Origin: Lysobacter dokdonensis DS-58
GTDB lineage: Bacteria; Pseudomonadota; Gammaproteobacteria; Xanthomonadales; Xanthomonadaceae
NCBI RefSeq assembly: GCF_000770795.1
Contig: NZ_JRKJ01000018.1
Location: forward strand, 124,001-188,000
Length of the DNA: 64,000 bases
Reading direction: 5' to 3'
Made by a program: the position numbers and the translations under genes
Notes under the pieces: generated by a model
The model's input: only the letters and a program-made list of their open reading frames with translations
The model's database searches: none
What the model was told of the DNA's origin: nothing
In this document: positions 21 through 24,961 of the stretch, piece after piece
Numbering within the stretch: the first letter of the stretch is position 1
Layout: every line of letters begins with the position of its first letter

Positions 21-3280
<3,260 letters not shown>

Positions 3281-3284
<4 letters not shown>

Positions 3285-4000
3285 CTTCGAACGACTCCAT
3301 CGACACCGCCGACCTGCTCGCGCAATACCAGCGCCTGCTCGAACGCGTGGAAACCAACGAGAAGGAATTCCGGCGCCTCGCGCGCTCGGTCTCGCGCGTG
3401 GAGGAGGACGAACGCCGCCGCCTCGCACGCGACCTGCACGATGGCCTCGGGCAAACGCTCACCGCGCTCAAGCATCGCCTCGTGCAACTCGGCGACGGGT
3501 TGCCGGGTGAATCGCGCGAACGCCTGGATGCCGCCATCGCCCTGTGCGGCGAGGCGCTGGAAGACACGCGCACGCTCTCGCGCCTGCTGCGTCCGCCCAT
3601 CCTCGACGACCTGGGCCTCGAAGCCGCGTTGCGCGCGCTCGCCCGTTCGCTCGGCGAATCCAGCGGCATGACCATCGACGTTGACATCGGCGAGTTGCCG
3701 CCTCTCGACGGCGATGTGCAGACGCTGCTGTTCCGCGTCGCGCAGGAAGCGTTGAACAACGCCGCGAAGCACGCGCACGCCTCGGAAGTCCTGGTGCGGC
3801 TGGTGTCGCGCGGTGGATTCCTGCAACTGCAGGTGGCCGACGATGGGGTCGGGTGCGATCCCGATCGCATGGTCGCCTCCGGCGGCAGCGGCCTGGGCGG
3901 CATGCGCGAACGCCTGCGCCTGTACGGCGGCCAGATGGAAATGCACTCCTCGGCCGGCGAAGGCACGCGTTTGCGCGCCCTGGTTCCGACGGGCGCTTGA
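3281..4000 (+). CDS. NarL-type sensor histidine kinase (HisKA_3 / HATPase)
   Basis: A soluble two-component kinase of 239 residues. A short coiled-coil-like N-terminus (about 1-45) leads into a HisKA_3 dimerisation helix with the phospho-acceptor His in ARDLHDGLGQ (near residue 53). A HATPase domain follows, with the N box in EALNNAAKHAHA and G boxes DDGVGCD and GSGLGGMRERL. There is no transmembrane segment or obvious sensor domain, so its input probably comes from a partner, most simply the kinase-TPR protein encoded upstream. The ATG at 3281 was chosen because it gives an ATGA overlap with that gene and matches the natural N-terminus of the family. The response regulator follows after 46 bases. 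Confidence 0.93.
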
Positions 4001-18306: not shown

Positions 18307-18712
18307 CCCGTCTCTCCTGGTGGAAAGGCGGCAAGATGCAAATGGAATGTCTCACCGATTGCGATCCGATCCTTCCGTCGTGGCCGGGATAGACGGCAAG
18401 CGAACGCACGTCGTGCACCTCCTTCGAGCAGAAGAACCTTGCGCCGCGGATCGGCGCAAGGTTGTCGGGAGGTTGAAAGGCCGCCAACAGTCAACGGTGG
18501 ACGTATTTCCCTTTGCGGGGTGTTGCATTGAGTCCCCTCCCGACGGAGGGGATACGCATTTGGCGCAGTCCCTGGCGCCGACTGTTGGCGGAGCTTTCAA
18601 ACTCCGGAACGAATCGTGCCTATGCGTGCCCATGCGGCGATATCAGCGAATGCCGCGATCGCGTGTCGGAAAACTCCTAATCACGTATCGCCGCGCCCGC
18701 GGCGAGCGGCTG
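18307..18712. other. Non-coding interval with two perfect stem-loops
   Basis: No credible gene in 406 bases: open frames here have poor composition and no ribosome-binding site. It holds two perfect inverted repeats. One at 18435-18463 has 11-base arms AACCTTGCGCC/GGCGCAAGGTT and a 7-base loop; one at 18533-18552 has 8-base arms TCCCCTCC/GGAGGGGA and a 4-base loop. Neither is followed by a U-run on either strand. They could be an RNA structure, a repeat element or weak terminators. Confidence 0.5.
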
Positions 18713-19069
18713 TCAGCCGGACTTCGCCATGTGCTCGGCGGCCTTGCGGCTGCGCGCCACGCGGTCGACGGCGTGCTGGAGGTCTTCCCCTACCCCGGCA
18801 AGTGCATCCGGAATCGGCCGGTGGCCCGGTTCGGCGGGAATGGGCCGCGGATCGCATTCAGCGGCAAAGTCCACCAGCATCTTGCCGACGTTGTACGTCG
18901 CATAGATCTCGGCATCCGGCCCGAACTCCCGCGCGGTATTCACGATCGCCCCCGCCACGCCGCCGAAGATTCCCAGGAAATGCCGCGCACTGGTGCTGTT
19001 GGCCAGCAGGTGCGGCATGGAATCGCGCAGGTCGCGCAGGTTGAGGTCGAGGAAATCCTTGCTCTTCAT
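18713..19069 (-). CDS. Hypothetical cytoplasmic protein
   Basis: A 118-residue, mostly helical protein that I do not recognise. It begins MKSKDFLDLNLRDLRDSM, contains the Gly-rich FLGIFGGVAGAIVNTAREFG segment and ends in a charged helix (DRVARSRKAAEHMAKSG). No signal peptide or clear membrane helix. The start at 19069 has GGAAG about 10 bases upstream; the longer open frame reaching to 19276 has low-quality sequence and is not preferred. Confidence 0.65.
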   Translation of the reverse strand: MKSKDFLDLNLRDLRDSMPHLLANSTSARHFLGIFGGVAGAIVNTAREFGPDAEIYATYNVGKMLVDFAAECDPRPIPAEPGHRPIPDALAGVGEDLQHAVDRVARSRKAAEHMAKSG

Positions 19070-19306
19070 CCGTGTTCGCTTCCGAGTTCGTGGATCCCCT
19101 GTCGCGAGCGTACTCCCCACTCCCGCAGACAGATTCGTGCGGAAGGGTGAAGCGTTCACGGAAGGCGCCGGGGTGGCCCGGGGAATGGCGCCTTCGTAGG
19201 GGGTAACGCGGATGGGTGGCGGGACCGGACCGCCGGGCGGTCGGGATTGCCGCTTCAGTGCACGCAGATCAGGCACCCGCGTTCTTGGTGACCGGAACGA
19301 ATTCCC

Positions 19307-19845
19307 TCATCGCTGCCACGGCGGCGTCCACGTTGACGGTGCAGGCGGCGCTGCCGGTGCGGCCGCTTGTTCCGCAGCGCCCGTTGCGGCGCTCGCGGTG
19401 GTGTCTTCCGTCGGCCGATCCTTGCGCCACACGTGCGCGTCCATGCCATGCCCGTCGCCACTACATTCCAGCAAATATTCGCCGCCGGCCTGCGCGTCGA
19501 CGGTCAGGTCGAATGTGCCGACGAACATGCCGTTGCAGCGCAATCGCACGAGGTACTTGCCTTGACGCACGCGCACGGCAGCGAACTTGCTCACGTTGGC
19601 GGCGCCAGCGACGTCGTAACCCTGCGAGATCACGATCAACTCGGCCATGCGTCGGGGCCCATGAAGATCCGCCTTGCCGTCGAGGATTTGAATTTCCTTT
19701 CCGAGCTCAACGCCGTGCGGATGATCGCGGTTTCGGATGCGGGCGTGGTCGCATCGACTTGATAGTCGAACGTGCCTTTCGGCTTCCCCCACGCAGTTGC
19801 GAACAGCAAGGCCGCCACGGCGGCCAGCTTGGCGGATCGGTGCAT
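19307..19845 (-). pseudogene. Frameshifted small secreted protein
   Basis: Two overlapping frames appear to make one protein of about 180 residues. The upstream frame (from ATG 19845) begins with a signal peptide, MHRSAKLAAVAALLFATAWG, followed by TFDYQVDATTPASETAIIR. It turns to nonsense near 19695-19701, where the other frame takes over with KEIQILDGKADLHGP, then IVISQGYDVAG and LVRLRCNGMFVGTFDLTVDA, and ends in an Ala/Pro-rich tail. Joining them requires a change equal to restoring one lost base in the GGAAAGGAAA stretch. It is either a pseudogene or a sequence error. Family unknown; a signal peptide and a beta-rich mature part are all that can be seen. Confidence 0.65.
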
Positions 19846-20051
19846 TGGTGCCCCCCCTGATGGACCTGCGAATCATAGCGACGTGCTGGCGGATAGAACC
19901 GGGCGCGGGGGATCACCGGCTGGTTTAAAACCAACGCATCCGCGTATTGAATTCGTCATAACCCGTCCCGCATCGCAGTCGACCAGACGATTCGCGAAAA
20001 GTGGACAACAAAGGGAGAGTTGACGTATCGAAATCCTGCCCCTGGGCTGGG

Positions 20052-21293
20052 TCAGCCCGCGCCCACCACGCCGCGGACGGAATAAAGGGGTTCGAGCAAC
20101 CACTCGTACAGCCGTCGCCGCTCGCTCAGGATGTCGGCCTCCAGCACCATCCCGGCCCGCAGCGGCTCTGGTTTCCCGTATGCGGTCACCGTTTGCGCGT
20201 CGAGTTCGACGAGCACGCGGTAGACGGGTTCACTGTCGGAGTTGGTCGGCGCCACCACGCTGCGCGAGACGCGTACCACGCGCCCGCTGTAATGACCGAA
20301 CTTCTGATACGGATAGGCCTGGTAACGCAGCAGCACCGCACTGCCCGGCTCGATAAAGCCGATCGCGCGGCTAGGCACAAGCAGCTGCGCCTGCAGGCGT
20401 GAACCTTGTGGCAGCAGCGTCAGCAGCGGTTGGCCGGCCTGCACCGCCTGCCCCGGCTCAACCAGCCGATTGGCGACGAGCCCGCCCACCGGTGCCTTGA
20501 CCAGCATCGCCCCGCCCGCCTCTTGCTGCACTCGCTCCTGCTGCAGCTGCGCGAGGTCGCGTTGTGTCGCGGCCTCTTTGGCATGACGCTGGGCGGGCAA
20601 CTCCTGCAGCGCTTGCTCCATCTGCATGATGCCGCGGCGGATCGTGGTGGCCTCGCGTTCCAGCGCCTGCTGTTGATCGACTAGGTCCAGCACCGCCTGC
20701 GCCTGTTGATCTAGCTGCGCTTGACTCACGTACTGATCCGCGGCGATGCGCGCATACCGCGCGGTCGTTACGCGCCCCAGCCGCACCTGCTCACGCCGCG
20801 TCGCAATCGCGGCCTCGGTCTGGTGCAACTGCTTGTGCGCGGCGGCGAGTTGCCGATGTGTACCCGCCTGCTGCGCGTCGAGCTGGGCGCGCTGCGCCGC
20901 GCCCAATGCCGCCACGCTCTCTTGGCGTGCCGCCAGTCCGTCGCGCAATGTGGCGAGCGCGTCCTCGCCGTGCGCCAGAGCGCGGGGGATGGACAGCCGC
21001 AGCAAGGGCGCGGCGTCTACAATCGGATCCCCTTCCTGCGGGATCACTTCAGCCACCACGCCGCTGGCGGGCGCGGTCACCGTCGCGAGACCTAGGCTCG
21101 GCACGAGCTGGCCCACGACCCGCGAGCGACGGCTGTAGCCACCGAAGAGCAGGAACGCCACGACCGCCAGCGCCGCGACCACCGCGACCAGCGTCAACGT
21201 CCACATTCGCAACGGTTGGGCGAGCGTGATGCCGCCGAGTTGCGCGCTGCCCTTTGCCTCCAGCACTTCACGGCGGAACAAGTCGTGCGTCAT
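20052..21293 (-). CDS. HlyD-family periplasmic adaptor for peptide/bacteriocin export
   Basis: A 413-residue membrane-fusion protein. It has a cytoplasmic N-terminus (MTHDLFRREVLEAKGSAQLG), one transmembrane helix at about 32-52 (LTLVAVVAALAVVAFLLFGG), a split lipoyl domain (ATVTAPASGVVAEVIPQEGD and GGAMLVKAPVGGLVANRLVEP), a long alpha-helical hairpin between them (about 110-250), and a beta-barrel (PSRAIGFIEPGSAVLLRYQA). This is the CvaA/MchE-like type that bridges a peptidase-containing ABC transporter to a TolC-type channel. The start at 21293 gives an ATGA overlap with a 38-residue ORF, which in turn overlaps the exporter gene. It is the last gene of the bacteriocin operon; no TolC homologue is adjacent. 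Confidence 0.92.
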   Translation of the reverse strand: MTHDLFRREVLEAKGSAQLGGITLAQPLRMWTLTLVAVVAALAVVAFLLFGGYSRRSRVVGQLVPSLGLATVTAPASGVVAEVIPQEGDPIVDAAPLLRLSIPRALAHGEDALATLRDGLAARQESVAALGAAQRAQLDAQQAGTHRQLAAAHKQLHQTEAAIATRREQVRLGRVTTARYARIAADQYVSQAQLDQQAQAVLDLVDQQQALEREATTIRRGIMQMEQALQELPAQRHAKEAATQRDLAQLQQERVQQEAGGAMLVKAPVGGLVANRLVEPGQAVQAGQPLLTLLPQGSRLQAQLLVPSRAIGFIEPGSAVLLRYQAYPYQKFGHYSGRVVRVSRSVVAPTNSDSEPVYRVLVELDAQTVTAYGKPEPLRAGMVLEADILSERRRLYEWLLEPLYSVRGVVGAG

Positions 21294-21406
21294 GCCGGCC
21301 GCTTTCGGCGCGCCTGCCGGTGTGCTTGCTCTGGTATCGAAAGGGTCTCGGCGGCCGCCTCCGCTTGCTGGTTGTCCCGCGGATGCCGCTCCTTCATGCC
21401 TGTCAT
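21290..21406 (-). CDS. 38-residue coupled small ORF between ABC exporter and HlyD genes
   Basis: This ORF exactly fills the gap between the exporter and the adaptor. Its ATG (21406) overlaps the exporter stop as ATGA, and its TGA overlaps the HlyD ATG as ATGA. The product begins MTGMKERHPRDNQQAEAAAE and ends in the very basic RQARRKRPA; it has no membrane segment. The double overlap strongly suggests that ribosomes pass through it, either to make a small basic protein or simply to carry translation into hlyD. A second ATG (21397) follows an internal GGC. Function unknown. Confidence 0.6.
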   Translation of the reverse strand: MTGMKERHPRDNQQAEAAAETLSIPEQAHRQARRKRPA

Positions 21407-23504
21407 GCGGTCGCGACCTCGGGCGATGGCGCGTGCGCGTTCGGCCGCACCTCCTGCACGATCCGCCCGCCGTGCATCACCAGAACGCGGTCGGCGCTCG
21501 CGATGGTTTCCGGGCGGTGCGCGATGATGATCCGAGTGATCTTGAGCGCGCGCACCGCATCGTTCACCCGACGCTCGCGCTCGACGTCGAGATGGCTGGT
21601 CGCCTCGTCGAGGAACAGAAAGCGCGGCTGGCGATAGAGCGCCCTCGCCAGGATCACTCGCTGCTTCTGCCCGCCCGACAGTGTGGTGCCCATGTCGCCA
21701 ATCAGGCTGTGATAGCCCATCGGCAATGACACGATGTCGTCGTGGACTGCGGCGAGCCGAGCGGCCTCTTCGACTCGTGCCAGATCATAGCCGTCCTCGC
21801 CGAAGGCGATGTTCTCGGCGACACTGCCGGCAAACAGCTTGTCGTCTTGCATCACAGCGCCCACCCGCTCCCGGTAGTGCCGGGTTCCGAGCCGACTGAG
21901 CTCGCGGCCATCGACGGTGATGCGGCCCTCGGTCGCCGGCAGCAGCCCCAGCAGCAGCTTGACCAGCGTGGTCTTGCCGCAACCCGACGCGCCGACGATC
22001 GCCACCGATTCGCCCTCCTCGACGGTGAAGCTGCAGCCCTTGAGTACACACGTCTCGCCATCGGCGTAGCGAAAGCCCAGGCCGTCGACAGTCAGGCTTC
22101 CGCCGGTCAGTTCCGCTGTCGGTGCCGCCCCCTGCTCCGCCTCGGGCTCGGCGAGCAAAATGTCTCCCAGTCGCTCGCCGTGCAGGCGCAACATGCGGAA
22201 CTCGATCCACTTGTCGATGAGCCCCGACACCGACCGGCGAACTGGTCCTTGTACGCGAGGTACGCCACCAGCATGCCCACCGAGAACACGTTCTCAAGCG
22301 CGAGCGTGGCGCCAATCCAGACCACGGCGATGCGTTCGAGGCCGAACACCAACTGGCTCGCGGCGCTGAAGCCCAGGCCCAGCTTGGCCAGCCCTACCTC
22401 GCGATTCACCGTGTCGTGCATCAGCGTGGCATAGGTCGAACGCCGCACCGGCTCACCGCCGGCGACCTTGATGGACTGGATGCCACGGATGGATTCGAGC
22501 AGGTGCGATTGCTGTTTGGCCGCCGCCCCCAGTTGCTGCTCAGTGCCGTCGCGCAGAGGGCGGTATGCGAGCGCCCGTAGGCCGAGGTACAGCCCAACCG
22601 CCAACAGCGTCACCAGCGCGAGCTCGGCGCTATAGAGCAGCATCATGCCGAGCGTCACCACCGCCATCAAGCCGTCAATCAACGACTCGACGAAGCTGGT
22701 GGTGAGCGTCTTCTGGATGGCCTGCACCGCGCCCATGCGCGAGGTGACGTCTCCCAAATGCCGCTTCTCAAAAAAGTCGAGCGGCAGGCGCAGCAGGTGG
22801 GCGAACACGTTGCTCATCCACTGCAGCCCAAGGCGCGTGGAAAGGTAGACCACCGTCCAGCCGCGCAGGAGGCTGATGGCGACCTGCAGCAGCAGCGCAA
22901 GCCCAAAGCCCAGCCCGAGCACGGTCAGCAGTTCGCGATCGGCGGCGACCAGCACCTGGTCGACCACCCACTGCATGAAAAACGGCGCCATCAGGAGAAA
23001 CGCCTGCAGTGCGAGCGAGAGCAGCAGCACGAGCGCGAGCGAGCGCCACAAACCCGACACGCGGCCGGTCAGCTGACGCATCGAAATCGACGGGGGTGCT
23101 TTCTGCGGCCGGAACTCAGCGGTGGGCGTCAGCTCCAGCGCGATGCCGGTGAAGTGCTTGGACACGTCGGCGCGCGACAGCACGCGGCGGCCTAGCGAAG
23201 GGTCGAGGATCGTGATGCGATCGCCCGCGACCTGCGCCAGGACCACGTAGTGGTTCAGGTCCCAATGCAGCACACACGGCGTCGTGAGCTTGGACAGATC
23301 GTCAAGGTCCAGACGTAGCGGACGCCCCTGCAACCCCAAATCACCCGCAATGGCGATCAGGCGCTTGAGCGACGCGCCCTTGAGTGACAACGGGAAGCGG
23401 CGGCGCAGTTCGCGCAGGCCGACCGCATTGCCGTGGTGCGCGGCAGCAATAGCGAGGCACACCAAGCCACATTCCGAAGATTCGGACTGGACAATGACTT
23501 CCAT
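21403..23504 (-). pseudogene. C39-peptidase ABC exporter for double-glycine peptides, frameshifted
   Basis: Together the two frames encode a complete peptidase-containing ATP-binding transporter of about 700 residues. Residues 1-135 form the C39 cysteine peptidase: catalytic Cys in QSESSECGLVCLAIAAAHHG, His in LNHYVVLAQV, Asp in ITILDPSLG. Six transmembrane helices follow (about 150-420), then the nucleotide-binding domain with Walker A VGASGCGKTTLVKLL, signature TTLSGGQKQRVILARAL, Walker B FLFLDEATSHLDVE and the H-loop IIIAHRPET. The frame breaks at about 22230-22232, where the first frame reads DQFAGRCRGSS and the second resumes as (V)SGLIDKWIEFRML. One missing base explains it. If real, no full-length exporter is made; a split protein starting at GTG 22230 is conceivable. 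Confidence 0.85.
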
Positions 23505-23559
23505 GCCCTATCTCACTTCAGACGCGGTTCGTTGCGGCGTACCTCGGCTTTCTTGCGCT

Positions 23560-23733
23560 TCAGCGCGCAGACTTTTCTGCCTCGCCGCTCTTGATGGCAT
23601 CGACCACTCGAGCCAAGGTCGCAACAATCGCCGCGAGCGAGACGAACGGCCACAGATGGTTGCTCGACGACACAAGCAGCACCGTCAAGCAGAACATGCA
23701 GATGACGTAGGACCTTTGATTCAAACGATGCAT
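23560..23733 (-). CDS. 57-residue membrane protein, candidate bacteriocin immunity protein
   Basis: A small intact ORF between the bacteriocin peptide genes and the exporter. The product starts MHRLNQRSYVICMFCLTVLL, has two short hydrophobic segments (about 10-24 and 30-46, the second WPFVSLAAIVATLARVV) and a charged tail (DAIKSGEAEKSAR). Small membrane proteins encoded beside class II bacteriocin genes commonly confer self-immunity; that role is inferred from position and topology only. The gene starts 123 bases after the second peptide gene and ends 55 bases before the exporter start. Confidence 0.6.
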   Translation of the reverse strand: MHRLNQRSYVICMFCLTVLLVSSSNHLWPFVSLAAIVATLARVVDAIKSGEAEKSAR

Positions 23734-23827
23734 CTTCACTTTCGAATCTCCAACTGGGCTGCATCAAACATCTCGTCAACCGCCAATCAACAGCACTGAC
23801 GAATGAGCGTAGCGACAAAGCTGCTGC

Positions 23828-23844
23828 TGGGGGCGACGCCCCCA
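23828..23844 (-). promoter_or_regulatory. Stem-loop between peptide genes and exporter genes
   Basis: A perfect 7-base inverted repeat TGGGGGC/GCCCCCA with a 3-base loop, placed just after the stop of the second peptide gene (23857). It has no U-run. In bacteriocin operons such a structure often acts as a partial terminator or 3'-end stabiliser, so that precursor mRNA exceeds exporter mRNA. That role is inferred. Confidence 0.4.
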
Positions 23845-23856
23845 ACAGTGGCCCAG

Positions 23857-24045
23857 TCACCAGAGTAGGTGTCCGATGATCGCGCCATGCAGGCCGCCAC
23901 TAACCGCACCAGCGAGGGCACCGATGGGCCCGCCGCACAAAAAACCAATTGCCGCGCCAGCGGTGACTCCTGCGGCGAAGCCCTCTGTGGTGCCCATGTG
24001 GGCACCGTCGATCTGATCGATTTCGTGGAGTGAAAGTTCACGCAT
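23857..24045 (-). CDS. Bacteriocin-like precursor peptide with double-glycine-type leader (peptide B)
   Basis: A 62-residue precursor. The leader MRELSLHEIDQIDGA has the pattern of double-glycine leaders (hydrophobic positions L, I, I and an acidic stretch), with GA instead of GG at the cleavage site, to be cut by the C39 peptidase. The mature part (about 47 residues) is Gly/Ala-rich and hydrophobic with repeated GxxxG/AxxxG spacing (AAGVTAGAAIGFLCGGPIGA), one Cys, and the ending GAIIGHLLW. This is typical of membrane-active class II peptides, especially two-peptide systems. A strong AAAGGAG site precedes the ATG at 24045. It lies 39 bases after a second peptide gene. Confidence 0.85.
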   Translation of the reverse strand: MRELSLHEIDQIDGAHMGTTEGFAAGVTAGAAIGFLCGGPIGALAGAVSGGLHGAIIGHLLW

Positions 24046-24084
24046 GCGTTTGCTCCTTTGGTTGACAGCTAGTTTGTTAGCAAC

Positions 24085-24261
24085 TCAAAGCAAATACAGG
24101 CCGACGCCAATGATTCCGCCAGCGAGCGCACCAATCGCCGCACCCGGAGCATTCGCGATGAGTGCCCCTGCGAATCCGCCTGCACCAGCACCTGTGAGGA
24201 ATGCGGTGCCCACCCCTTCACCTCCCACCATCTCAATTTCTTCGAACGTCAGGTCGCGCAT
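24085..24261 (-). CDS. Bacteriocin-like precursor peptide with double-glycine leader (peptide A)
   Basis: A 58-residue precursor encoded immediately upstream of peptide B. The leader MRDLTFEEIEMVGG is a textbook double-glycine leader. The mature part (about 44 residues) starts EGVGTAFLTGAGAGG and ends AGGIIGVGLYLL, and is highly hydrophobic and rich in Gly and Ala with many GxxxG spacings. It has no Cys. The two peptides share leader architecture and helix-packing motifs but differ in sequence, as expected for the two partners of a class IIb bacteriocin. The ATG at 24261 has only a weak GAAGA site upstream. Confidence 0.85.
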   Translation of the reverse strand: MRDLTFEEIEMVGGEGVGTAFLTGAGAGGFAGALIANAPGAAIGALAGGIIGVGLYLL

Positions 24262-24884
24262 TCTTCGATCACGAAAAGAGCCCCAGGTATGCAGTCGTCG
24301 CGCTCAGCTGATTGATGCATTGCAACGCTGCCTCGTTCTGTACGAACTGGCCGATCAGTTCAGCCGAGCCCAGCTGATCATGTGACAGCACTCGGAACCA
24401 GAAGAAAGGTCTGGAGGTCCGGAGGAAACTCTCGAAAGGTTTGCATACTGGCCAAGAGTCTGTGTAGTGCACTTCCAACCGATGGTGAGACTAGAAAAGA
24501 AGGAAAACGCCAGGGACTGATGCATCGATAAAGGCCCATGAGAGTTGGTGCCCGACTTGTGTCCCAACCCCGAAACGGGTTCACGTCGCCCCATCCAAAC
24601 AATCGGGGAGAGACTTGACTGGGCAGTGATCGCGCAATGGAATTAGACATCGCTGCCAGGCTCAACGCGTTTCTGGTGGTCGAGCAACGGCAGGATTTCA
24701 ATTGACGCGTGTTAGGTCGCGATCGACGTCCATCAATATGGCGCGCCAAGTGGTACGTGCACGAGTGATGCTGATTTCGTAGGGAAGGCACCTACCGGGC
24801 AATAGATGACGCACCCTCTTGCACCAATAAAAAATGGGCCCGCCCGGAAGCGCGCCCATTCTTGTCGCTAGATAACGCTAAATT
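24262..24884. other. Low-GC upstream region of the bacteriocin operon
   Basis: About 620 bases with noticeably lower GC than the surroundings. It presumably carries the operon promoter and leader. No confident gene is present. The only suggestive frame on the minus strand is a 40-codon ORF from GTG 24391 to the stop at 24269 (begins VLSHDQLGSAELIGQF, ends AYLGLFS), which ends 7 bases before peptide A. It has no recognised domain or clear ribosome-binding site. Open frames of 60-140 codons here lack protein-like composition. No promoter could be assigned with confidence. Confidence 0.5.
24829..24860 (-). terminator. Intrinsic terminator of tRNA-Pro
   Basis: Read on the minus strand, AATGGGC and GCCCATT arms enclose a GC-rich loop and are followed by a run of T's (complement of the A-run at 24829-24834). 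It lies 24 bases past the 3' end of the tRNA-Pro gene and separates it from the bacteriocin region. Confidence 0.85.
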
Positions 24885-24961
24885 TGGTCGGGGTAGCCGG
24901 ATTCGAACCGACGACCACCAGTCCCCCAGACTGGTGCGCTACCAGGCTGCGCTATACCCCG
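24885..24961 (-). tRNA. tRNA-Pro (anticodon GGG)
   Basis: A 77-base cloverleaf with encoded CCA. The acceptor CGGGGTA pairs with TACCCCG, the D-arm is GCGCAGCCTGGTAGCGC, the anticodon stem CCAGT/ACTGG encloses the loop CTGGGGG with anticodon GGG, and the T-arm is CGGTTCGAATCCG. The bacteriocin region begins at its 3' side, a classic position for integrated DNA, though I saw no duplicated tRNA end. Confidence 0.97.

Follow-up and report, generated by a model that had tools for sequence, protein, structure and literature searches.

Most known two-peptide bacteriocins come from Gram-positive bacteria. Those of class IIb have two neighbouring precursors with double-glycine-type leaders and GxxxG cores, together with one immunity gene. 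A characterised Gram-negative system is CdzC/CdzD of Caulobacter, a two-protein glycine-zipper bacteriocin, and Cdz-like clusters were reported by its authors in Xylella (PMC5380434); another contact-dependent killer was set apart from Cdz by its own authors (PMC8386478). Class II microcin candidates were reported from Xanthomonas (PMC13174018). Apart from the Xylella clusters of PMC5380434, no two-peptide glycine-zipper bacteriocin of the Lysobacteraceae was found among the papers listed in the literature searches, which were judged by title and start of the abstract and covered few subscription journals. Here, we analysed a stretch of 64,000 nucleotides from Lysobacter dokdonensis DS-58 (contig NZ_JRKJ01000018.1, positions 124,001 to 188,000; hereafter the window), in which two adjacent genes for small peptides (peptide 1 and peptide 2) are followed by genes for a small membrane protein, an ABC exporter with a C39 peptidase domain and an adaptor of the HlyD type. 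It is our favoured interpretation, held with reasonable though not high confidence, that the locus encodes an unmodified glycine-zipper bacteriocin that consists of two peptides, uses export of the class II microcin type and comes with one immunity protein, and that it represents a new family in the Lysobacteraceae; its activity, synergy and processing are what we infer. The preliminary description of this DNA had presented the layout as best known from Firmicutes and had pointed to its presence in a Gram-negative genome; with the CdzC/CdzD precedent (PMC5380434), however, it is not new to Gram-negative bacteria. Cdz being the characterised Gram-negative two-peptide bacteriocin that was found, the pair of the window would add a new family of an already known kind with an odd feature, a Gly-Glu leader end.

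All genes of the locus lie on the minus strand. Transcription would run from peptide 1 (58 amino acids (aa), 24085–24261, with the canonical-register leader at 24217–24261) to peptide 2 (62 aa, 23857–24045; leader at 24001–24045, ending Gly-Ala), the small membrane protein (59 aa, 23560–23739, two helices predicted from hydropathy), which is the candidate immunity protein, the exporter and finally the HlyD-family periplasmic adaptor, which is full length (413 aa, 20052–21293; Pfam HlyD_3, E=6.7e-20). The exporter consists of a first part with the C39 peptidase and membrane domain (465 aa, 22107–23504; Peptidase_C39 E=3.1e-32, ABC_membrane E=1.3e-35) and a second part with the ATPase in another frame (275 aa, 21403–22230; ABC_tran E=3.3e-35). 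A tRNA-Pro(GGG) gene was located upstream by ARAGORN (24885–24961, minus strand). The genes named in the preliminary description and their place beside a tRNA gene were confirmed, apart from the exporter, which lies in two frames. The lower-GC DNA that had also been noted was found only at ∼23.5–25.0 kb (GC fraction of 0.55–0.59), and did not extend to the exporter and adaptor (0.65–0.70).

The locus resembles Cdz, as described in PMC5380434, in its adjacent small glycine-zipper precursors, its type I secretion genes and its Gram-negative host. Cdz has one small inner-membrane immunity protein, for which there is a candidate in the window, and the Xylella clusters come from the same family as the host of the window. 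Nevertheless, by the sequence criteria given for Cdz-like peptides (60–151 residues, a leader ending in G[G/A/S], and a zipper without Pro, Cys or charged residues; PMC5380434), the present pair is outside the Cdz-like class, as compared by description and not by sequence. Peptide 2 lies within the length range, whereas peptide 1 is too short with 58 residues, which leaves the pair as a whole outside it. The leader of peptide 2 ends in GA, and that of peptide 1 has GE in register and GG one residue off. Peptide 1 contains P39 within its glycine-rich stretch, and C37 and P40 are found within the zipper of peptide 2. Other differences from Cdz are the hydrophobic C-termini, GLYLL in peptide 1 and GHLLW in peptide 2, and an immunity candidate with two predicted helices instead of three. 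The present pair probably works in a Cdz-like way all the same.

The pair was traced in nine loci, which were the window, L046 (Xanthomonas sp. LMG 31884), L061 (Stenotrophomonas maltophilia Sm46PAILV), L090 (Arenimonas daejeonensis), L148, L149, L150, L151 and L152. It was found that peptide 1 is followed by peptide 2 with a gap of 13–52 bases in all nine, and that neither peptide occurs alone in them, a likeness to the neighbouring precursors of class IIb. In contrast, the arrangement of the exporter genes varies: the adaptor lies ahead of the pair in L046, L061, L148 and L150 and behind the exporter in the window, the pair of L151 is on the opposite strand, and the exporter of L152 is 3.3 kb off. 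Because the exporter genes are rearranged around the pair, the pair itself appears to be the kept unit, and this is a better argument than co-occurrence.

Co-occurrence was observed as well. The window, L046 and L061 supplied the sequences for both profiles, each of which was searched against 395 genomes of the family, the two draws being assumed to be identical; the window's own genome and G408, apparently the same genome as L046 since it has the same peptides, match by construction. At E<=0.001, the peptide 2 profile matched 34 of the 395 genomes, seven of them with at least 40 bits over nearly the full length, and the other matches were below 31 bits and mostly confined to the glycine-rich part. 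The peptide 1 profile matched eight genomes, six with at least 40 bits, and all six are among the seven with a strong peptide 2. Four genomes (G254, G395, G094 and G208) are strong for both peptides and independent of the profile members, and in the seventh (G409) tblastn and a leader matrix revealed a diverged peptide 1 adjoining peptide 2. The chance of the six-in-seven overlap would be 1.4e-12 for independent genes; as linked genes are not independent, this value says only that the peptides travel together. With both the fixed order and the co-occurrence, the paired, class IIb-like layout proposed earlier gains comparative support.

The eight homologues of each peptide are 33–67% (peptide 1) and 39–69% (peptide 2) identical to those of the window, and identity drops in parallel for both (r=0.94). 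The proportions of synonymous (pS) and nonsynonymous (pN) differences were 0.63–0.89 and 0.11–0.33, respectively, in 30 nucleotide comparisons among six loci, demonstrating purifying selection on the peptides with synonymous sites near saturation. The distribution of the pair is patchy. Neither peptide reached the profile threshold in any of four same-genus genomes, and in two of these congeners a single-sequence search gave glycine-rich matches that were weak and partial (E of 0.003 and 0.009). Among 369 genomes sampled class-wide, the peptide 2 profile matched four, namely the window's own genome and three partial cases, and peptide 2 gave no match at E<=1e-3 in plasmid and phage collections.

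The glycine zipper is most evident in peptide 2, where eleven glycines follow each other at an unbroken i+4 spacing (residues 18, 22, 26 and so on to 58), as they also do in L046, L061 and L148. Neither this run nor the 10 GxxxG motifs of peptide 2 were equalled in any of 5000 shuffles. For peptide 1, the homologues of L046, L149, L150 and L151 had GxxxG contents with p<0.02 by shuffling, those of L149 and L151 being clearly significant. Peptide 2 scored slightly higher with the general glycine-zipper family of Pfam (22.2 bits, cut-off 25) than with the bacteriocin families, and each peptide profile found one unconvincing match among solved structures (E of 0.99 and 0.66).

Leaders were scored with a position matrix seeded with 62 canonical leaders from 87 loci, and 9508 small open reading frames (ORFs) were examined; a regular expression was dropped, as it missed Gly-Glu leaders. 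Only nine ORFs scored 7.5–15 bits and 105 scored at least 15 bits. The leader-like N-termini of peptide 1 (29.1 bits, not a seed) and peptide 2 (35.4 bits, a seed) lie well clear of this background. In the register of the reported recognition positions Leu-12, Glu-8, Leu-7 and Val-4 (PMC6363468), the leader of peptide 2 ends in Gly-Ala and that of peptide 1 in Gly-Glu. The double-glycine-type leaders of the preliminary description stand as leader-like N-termini of both peptides, but the GG of MRDLTFEEIEMVGG lies one residue early relative to the canonical register. The closer relatives of peptide 1 carry DG, EG or AG at the position of this GG and share G14-E15, which indicates that the GG is not the conserved site. 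The 105 leaders ended in GG (80), GA (16), GE (5), AG, GC, GW and GS (one each), with ends other than G, A or S undercounted because the seeds had to carry one of these at the last place. All five GE leaders belong to peptide 1 homologues (the window, L046, L061, L148 and L150); the remaining four end in GG (L149, L151 and L090) or GA (L152). The retention of Gly-Glu among sequences 57–67% identical to that of the window suggests that this end is functional, which might involve tolerant cleavage or a different processing of the peptide 1 half.

With respect to class IIb, Bacteriocin_IIc was matched at E<=0.01 by seven of the nine peptide 2 homologues but only two of the nine peptide 1 homologues; the locus differs from that class in its below-cut-off score in the window and in the use of an HlyD adaptor for export. 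Its likeness to MccV/CvaC-type class II microcins lies in the 15-residue leader and in the C39 exporter and HlyD adaptor of the cluster, the exporter being in two frames here. The MccV profile was weakly matched by six of nine peptide 2 and three of nine peptide 1 homologues. Unlike the MccV type, the window has two peptides and one immunity candidate instead of one toxin, and its own matches were below the cut-off. The CvaC-type toxin described for Xylella is, with 88 residues in its mature form, longer than either peptide (PMC11885251).

In each of the nine loci, peptide 2 has a predicted membrane ORF behind it. Two helices are predicted for eight of these ORFs and a single helix for that of L149, under a permissive choice of ORF and with no control set. 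The small membrane protein of the window is 27–29% identical to its counterparts in L046 and L061, and a tblastn search with it in L148–L154 matched only L148 (37.5% over 48 residues), missing even L153, which is the genome of L046. In view of this low identity and single match, it may be a fast-evolving protein or not always the same protein. It showed no resemblance to the window's own peptides by shuffling (p of 0.68 and 0.54).

In the proposed mechanism, the exporter, with the HlyD adaptor and presumably TolC, would recognise both precursors through their N-terminal leaders, cut the leaders off (peptide 1 presumably at Gly-Glu) and move the cores outward. Once outside, the two cores, both helical and rich in Gly and Ala, would associate in a competitor's inner membrane and cause leakage, and the producer would be protected by the product of the small membrane gene that follows the pair. 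In the 10 aligned C39 domains, the ECG, NHY/NHF and DP motifs, which we take to be the catalytic motifs, were all retained. A nitrile-hydratase-type (NHLM) exporter was ruled out, as the scores of the two parts (264 and 207 bits) were far short of the cut-off of 853.

Several results weigh against a two-peptide bacteriocin. The mature parts of both peptides had been called GxxxG-rich, which holds for peptide 2 but not for peptide 1 of the window, whose five GxxxG motifs (p=0.20) and longest run of four (p=0.14) are matched by shuffling; in L090 and L152, the zipper of peptide 1 was likewise no better than chance. In favour of the proposal, AlphaFold predicted each peptide as one helix, with mean predicted local distance difference test (pLDDT) values of the best models of 86 (peptide 1) and 94 (peptide 2), but on the weak basis of three-sequence alignments and single chains, and the five models of peptide 1 varied from 58.8 to 86.0. 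Exporters of this type typically accept Gly-Gly, Gly-Ala or Gly-Ser (PMC6363468), and peptide 1 has Gly-Glu at this site. The search of leader models proposed in the preliminary description was successful only in part: matches to MccV (20.5 and 21.0 bits, cut-off 27) and, for peptide 2, to Bacteriocin_IIc (20.2 bits, cut-off 27.1) were obtained, and every Pfam score was below its cut-off. No promoter-like site was found in a scan of 19,800–24,900, which returned two terminator-like sites against 3.8 expected. Linked inheritance would render the co-occurrence of the peptides trivial. Furthermore, the exporter is not one ORF, as had been implied before the frame break was noticed, but shows a net one-base shift near 22,230 relative to an intact 702-residue paralogue in the same genome; the first part is 75% identical to residues 1–425 of this paralogue, with the similarity ending at ∼22,230, and the second part is 74% identical to residues 426–699. 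The break is either a mutation or an assembly error, since in a draft assembly a shift of one base may stem from faulty sequencing. Export by its own pump in this strain is doubtful. If the frameshift is real, export would depend in trans on the intact sister exporter (74–75% identical, ∼50 kb away), which is a plausible route.

The frame break raises the possibility, to which we give considerable weight while regarding it as less probable than not, that the locus is decaying, with a dead exporter and peptides no longer secreted in this strain. A neighbouring gene (19307–19876, minus strand) also shifts frame at ∼19,645 compared with its congener homologue (L165, 5524–6072), and the exporter gene of the homologous L149 locus is interrupted by an insertion (2117–3571), which contains a long ORF judged by eye to resemble a transposase; the peptides of that locus are open. 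When the rest of the window was compared with two congeners, ten multi-frame cases emerged; among the eight inspected, one (∼19,645) was taken as clearly coding and the other seven resembled antisense or out-of-frame ORFs by eye. Decay is countered by the fact that the peptide, small membrane and adaptor genes all have open frames, by the presence of the intact sister exporter and by the possible sequencing error. The pair could also be read as two independent single-peptide microcins with a shared exporter, one being a duplicate of the other. Indeed, the peptides are paralogues, 35–47% identical where aligned, and tandem duplication alone would also give neighbours; 80 exporter loci included 58 with at least one leader and 21 with an adjacent pair, leaving many sister loci with a single precursor; and in Xylella a single cvi immunity gene accompanies three cvaC genes in tandem (PMC11885251). 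However, neither peptide stands alone in the nine loci, their order is fixed, each retains its own signature, and one candidate immunity ORF lies behind each pair under the permissive choice mentioned above, which makes independent microcins unlikely in our judgement. We consider it still less probable that the secreted peptides have a different role, for instance in surface aggregation, biofilms or signalling. Signalling peptides also carry such leaders (PMC6363468), and the zipper of CdzC was given as the cause of the surface aggregates that this peptide forms (PMC5380434), but the patchy distribution (absence from all four congeners at the profile threshold), the variable tRNA site and the pair's own membrane protein fit better with a bacteriocin. 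A two-peptide bacteriocin thus remains the preferred interpretation, and its likely targets would be close relatives, including plant and hospital bacteria.

At the tRNA-Pro site, blastn similarity to four congeners ended at the 3' end of the tRNA gene, and a block near 18.4–18.7 kb was common to the window and these congeners. The variable stretch between them spans 18,660–24,882 in the window and 0.8, 1.4, 7.5 and 10.4 kb in the congeners; the longest one (L165) showed further matches at 18,857–19,230 and 19,410–19,865. No match to the sister exporter was obtained by tblastn at E<=1e-5 in the four congener regions. In the window, the 24-base end of tRNA-Pro (<=3 mismatches) was found only inside the tRNA itself, giving no attachment repeat.

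The sister exporter belongs to a second locus on the contig of the window (G000:C10; L004, 7759–11697), which lies outside the window. This locus repeats the layout of the window, from a precursor pair through a small membrane protein to a C39 exporter and an HlyD adaptor (59% identical to that of the window over 422 positions), but its cores fall in other sequence clusters and its exporter is intact. Both halves of the sister family were found at nearly full length in the same four of 335 genomes and were adjacent in three of them; in G262, the best matches to the two halves were on different contigs. For the 80 named exporter loci, some of which are cut by contig ends, two pair types besides the family of the window recurred in which each half clustered at E<1e-4; one comprises the sister locus and L086, the other L034 and L041. 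In two more types, L048 with L058 and L029 with L043, clustering was limited to one half. On visual inspection, L017 was added to the type of the sister locus and L086, in agreement with further searches, and L084 to that of L029 and L043. The near-identical repeats of L085 and L030, the proline-rich peptides of L151 and L087, and single cases were not counted as recurring pairs.

Unlike that of the window, the small membrane protein of the sister locus (L004, 8124–8258) resembled the second peptide of its own pair; in L004, L086 and L017, 0, 1 and 0 of 5000 shuffles scored as high, these being plain shuffles in which the hydrophobic stretch was not kept together. The profile of this second peptide also matched the stretch directly behind the peptide in G165 (E of 4e-4), G071 (1e-3) and G262 (9e-5). 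The look-alike pattern recurred in a dissimilar family, since in L034 (4399–4761) and L041 (9878–10260) the small membrane ORF behind the pair resembled the first peptide (scores of 50 and 54; none of 5000 shuffles each). Tentatively, and with less confidence than for the window pair itself, the Lysobacteraceae may have a class of two-peptide microcins, in which dissimilar pairs with their own small membrane proteins lie at sister C39 exporters. Within such a class, the Gly-Glu often kept in peptide 1 of the window family would imply unusual processing, and leaderless look-alike proteins in two sister families, though not in that of the window, might confer immunity by substituting for a peptide in the complex. 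If true, pairs recurring across relatives of Xanthomonas would make paired-peptide killing across the outer membrane testable, as well as the handling of a Gly-Glu site by a C39 exporter and immunity by partner mimicry.

In 39 of 335 family genomes, matches to the profile of the sister locus's second peptide were confined to its second half and lacked a leader (E<=0.01); these genomes may encode look-alike membrane proteins that stand alone, or the matches may be due to chance. In the window's own genome, the leader profile gave five matches at E<=10, comprising the pair of the window, the sister pair and one orphan precursor on contig 12 (G000; L011, 1432–1734, minus strand). The leader of this orphan is canonical, its core contains two cysteines, and a small hydrophobic ORF lies behind it at 1185–1373.

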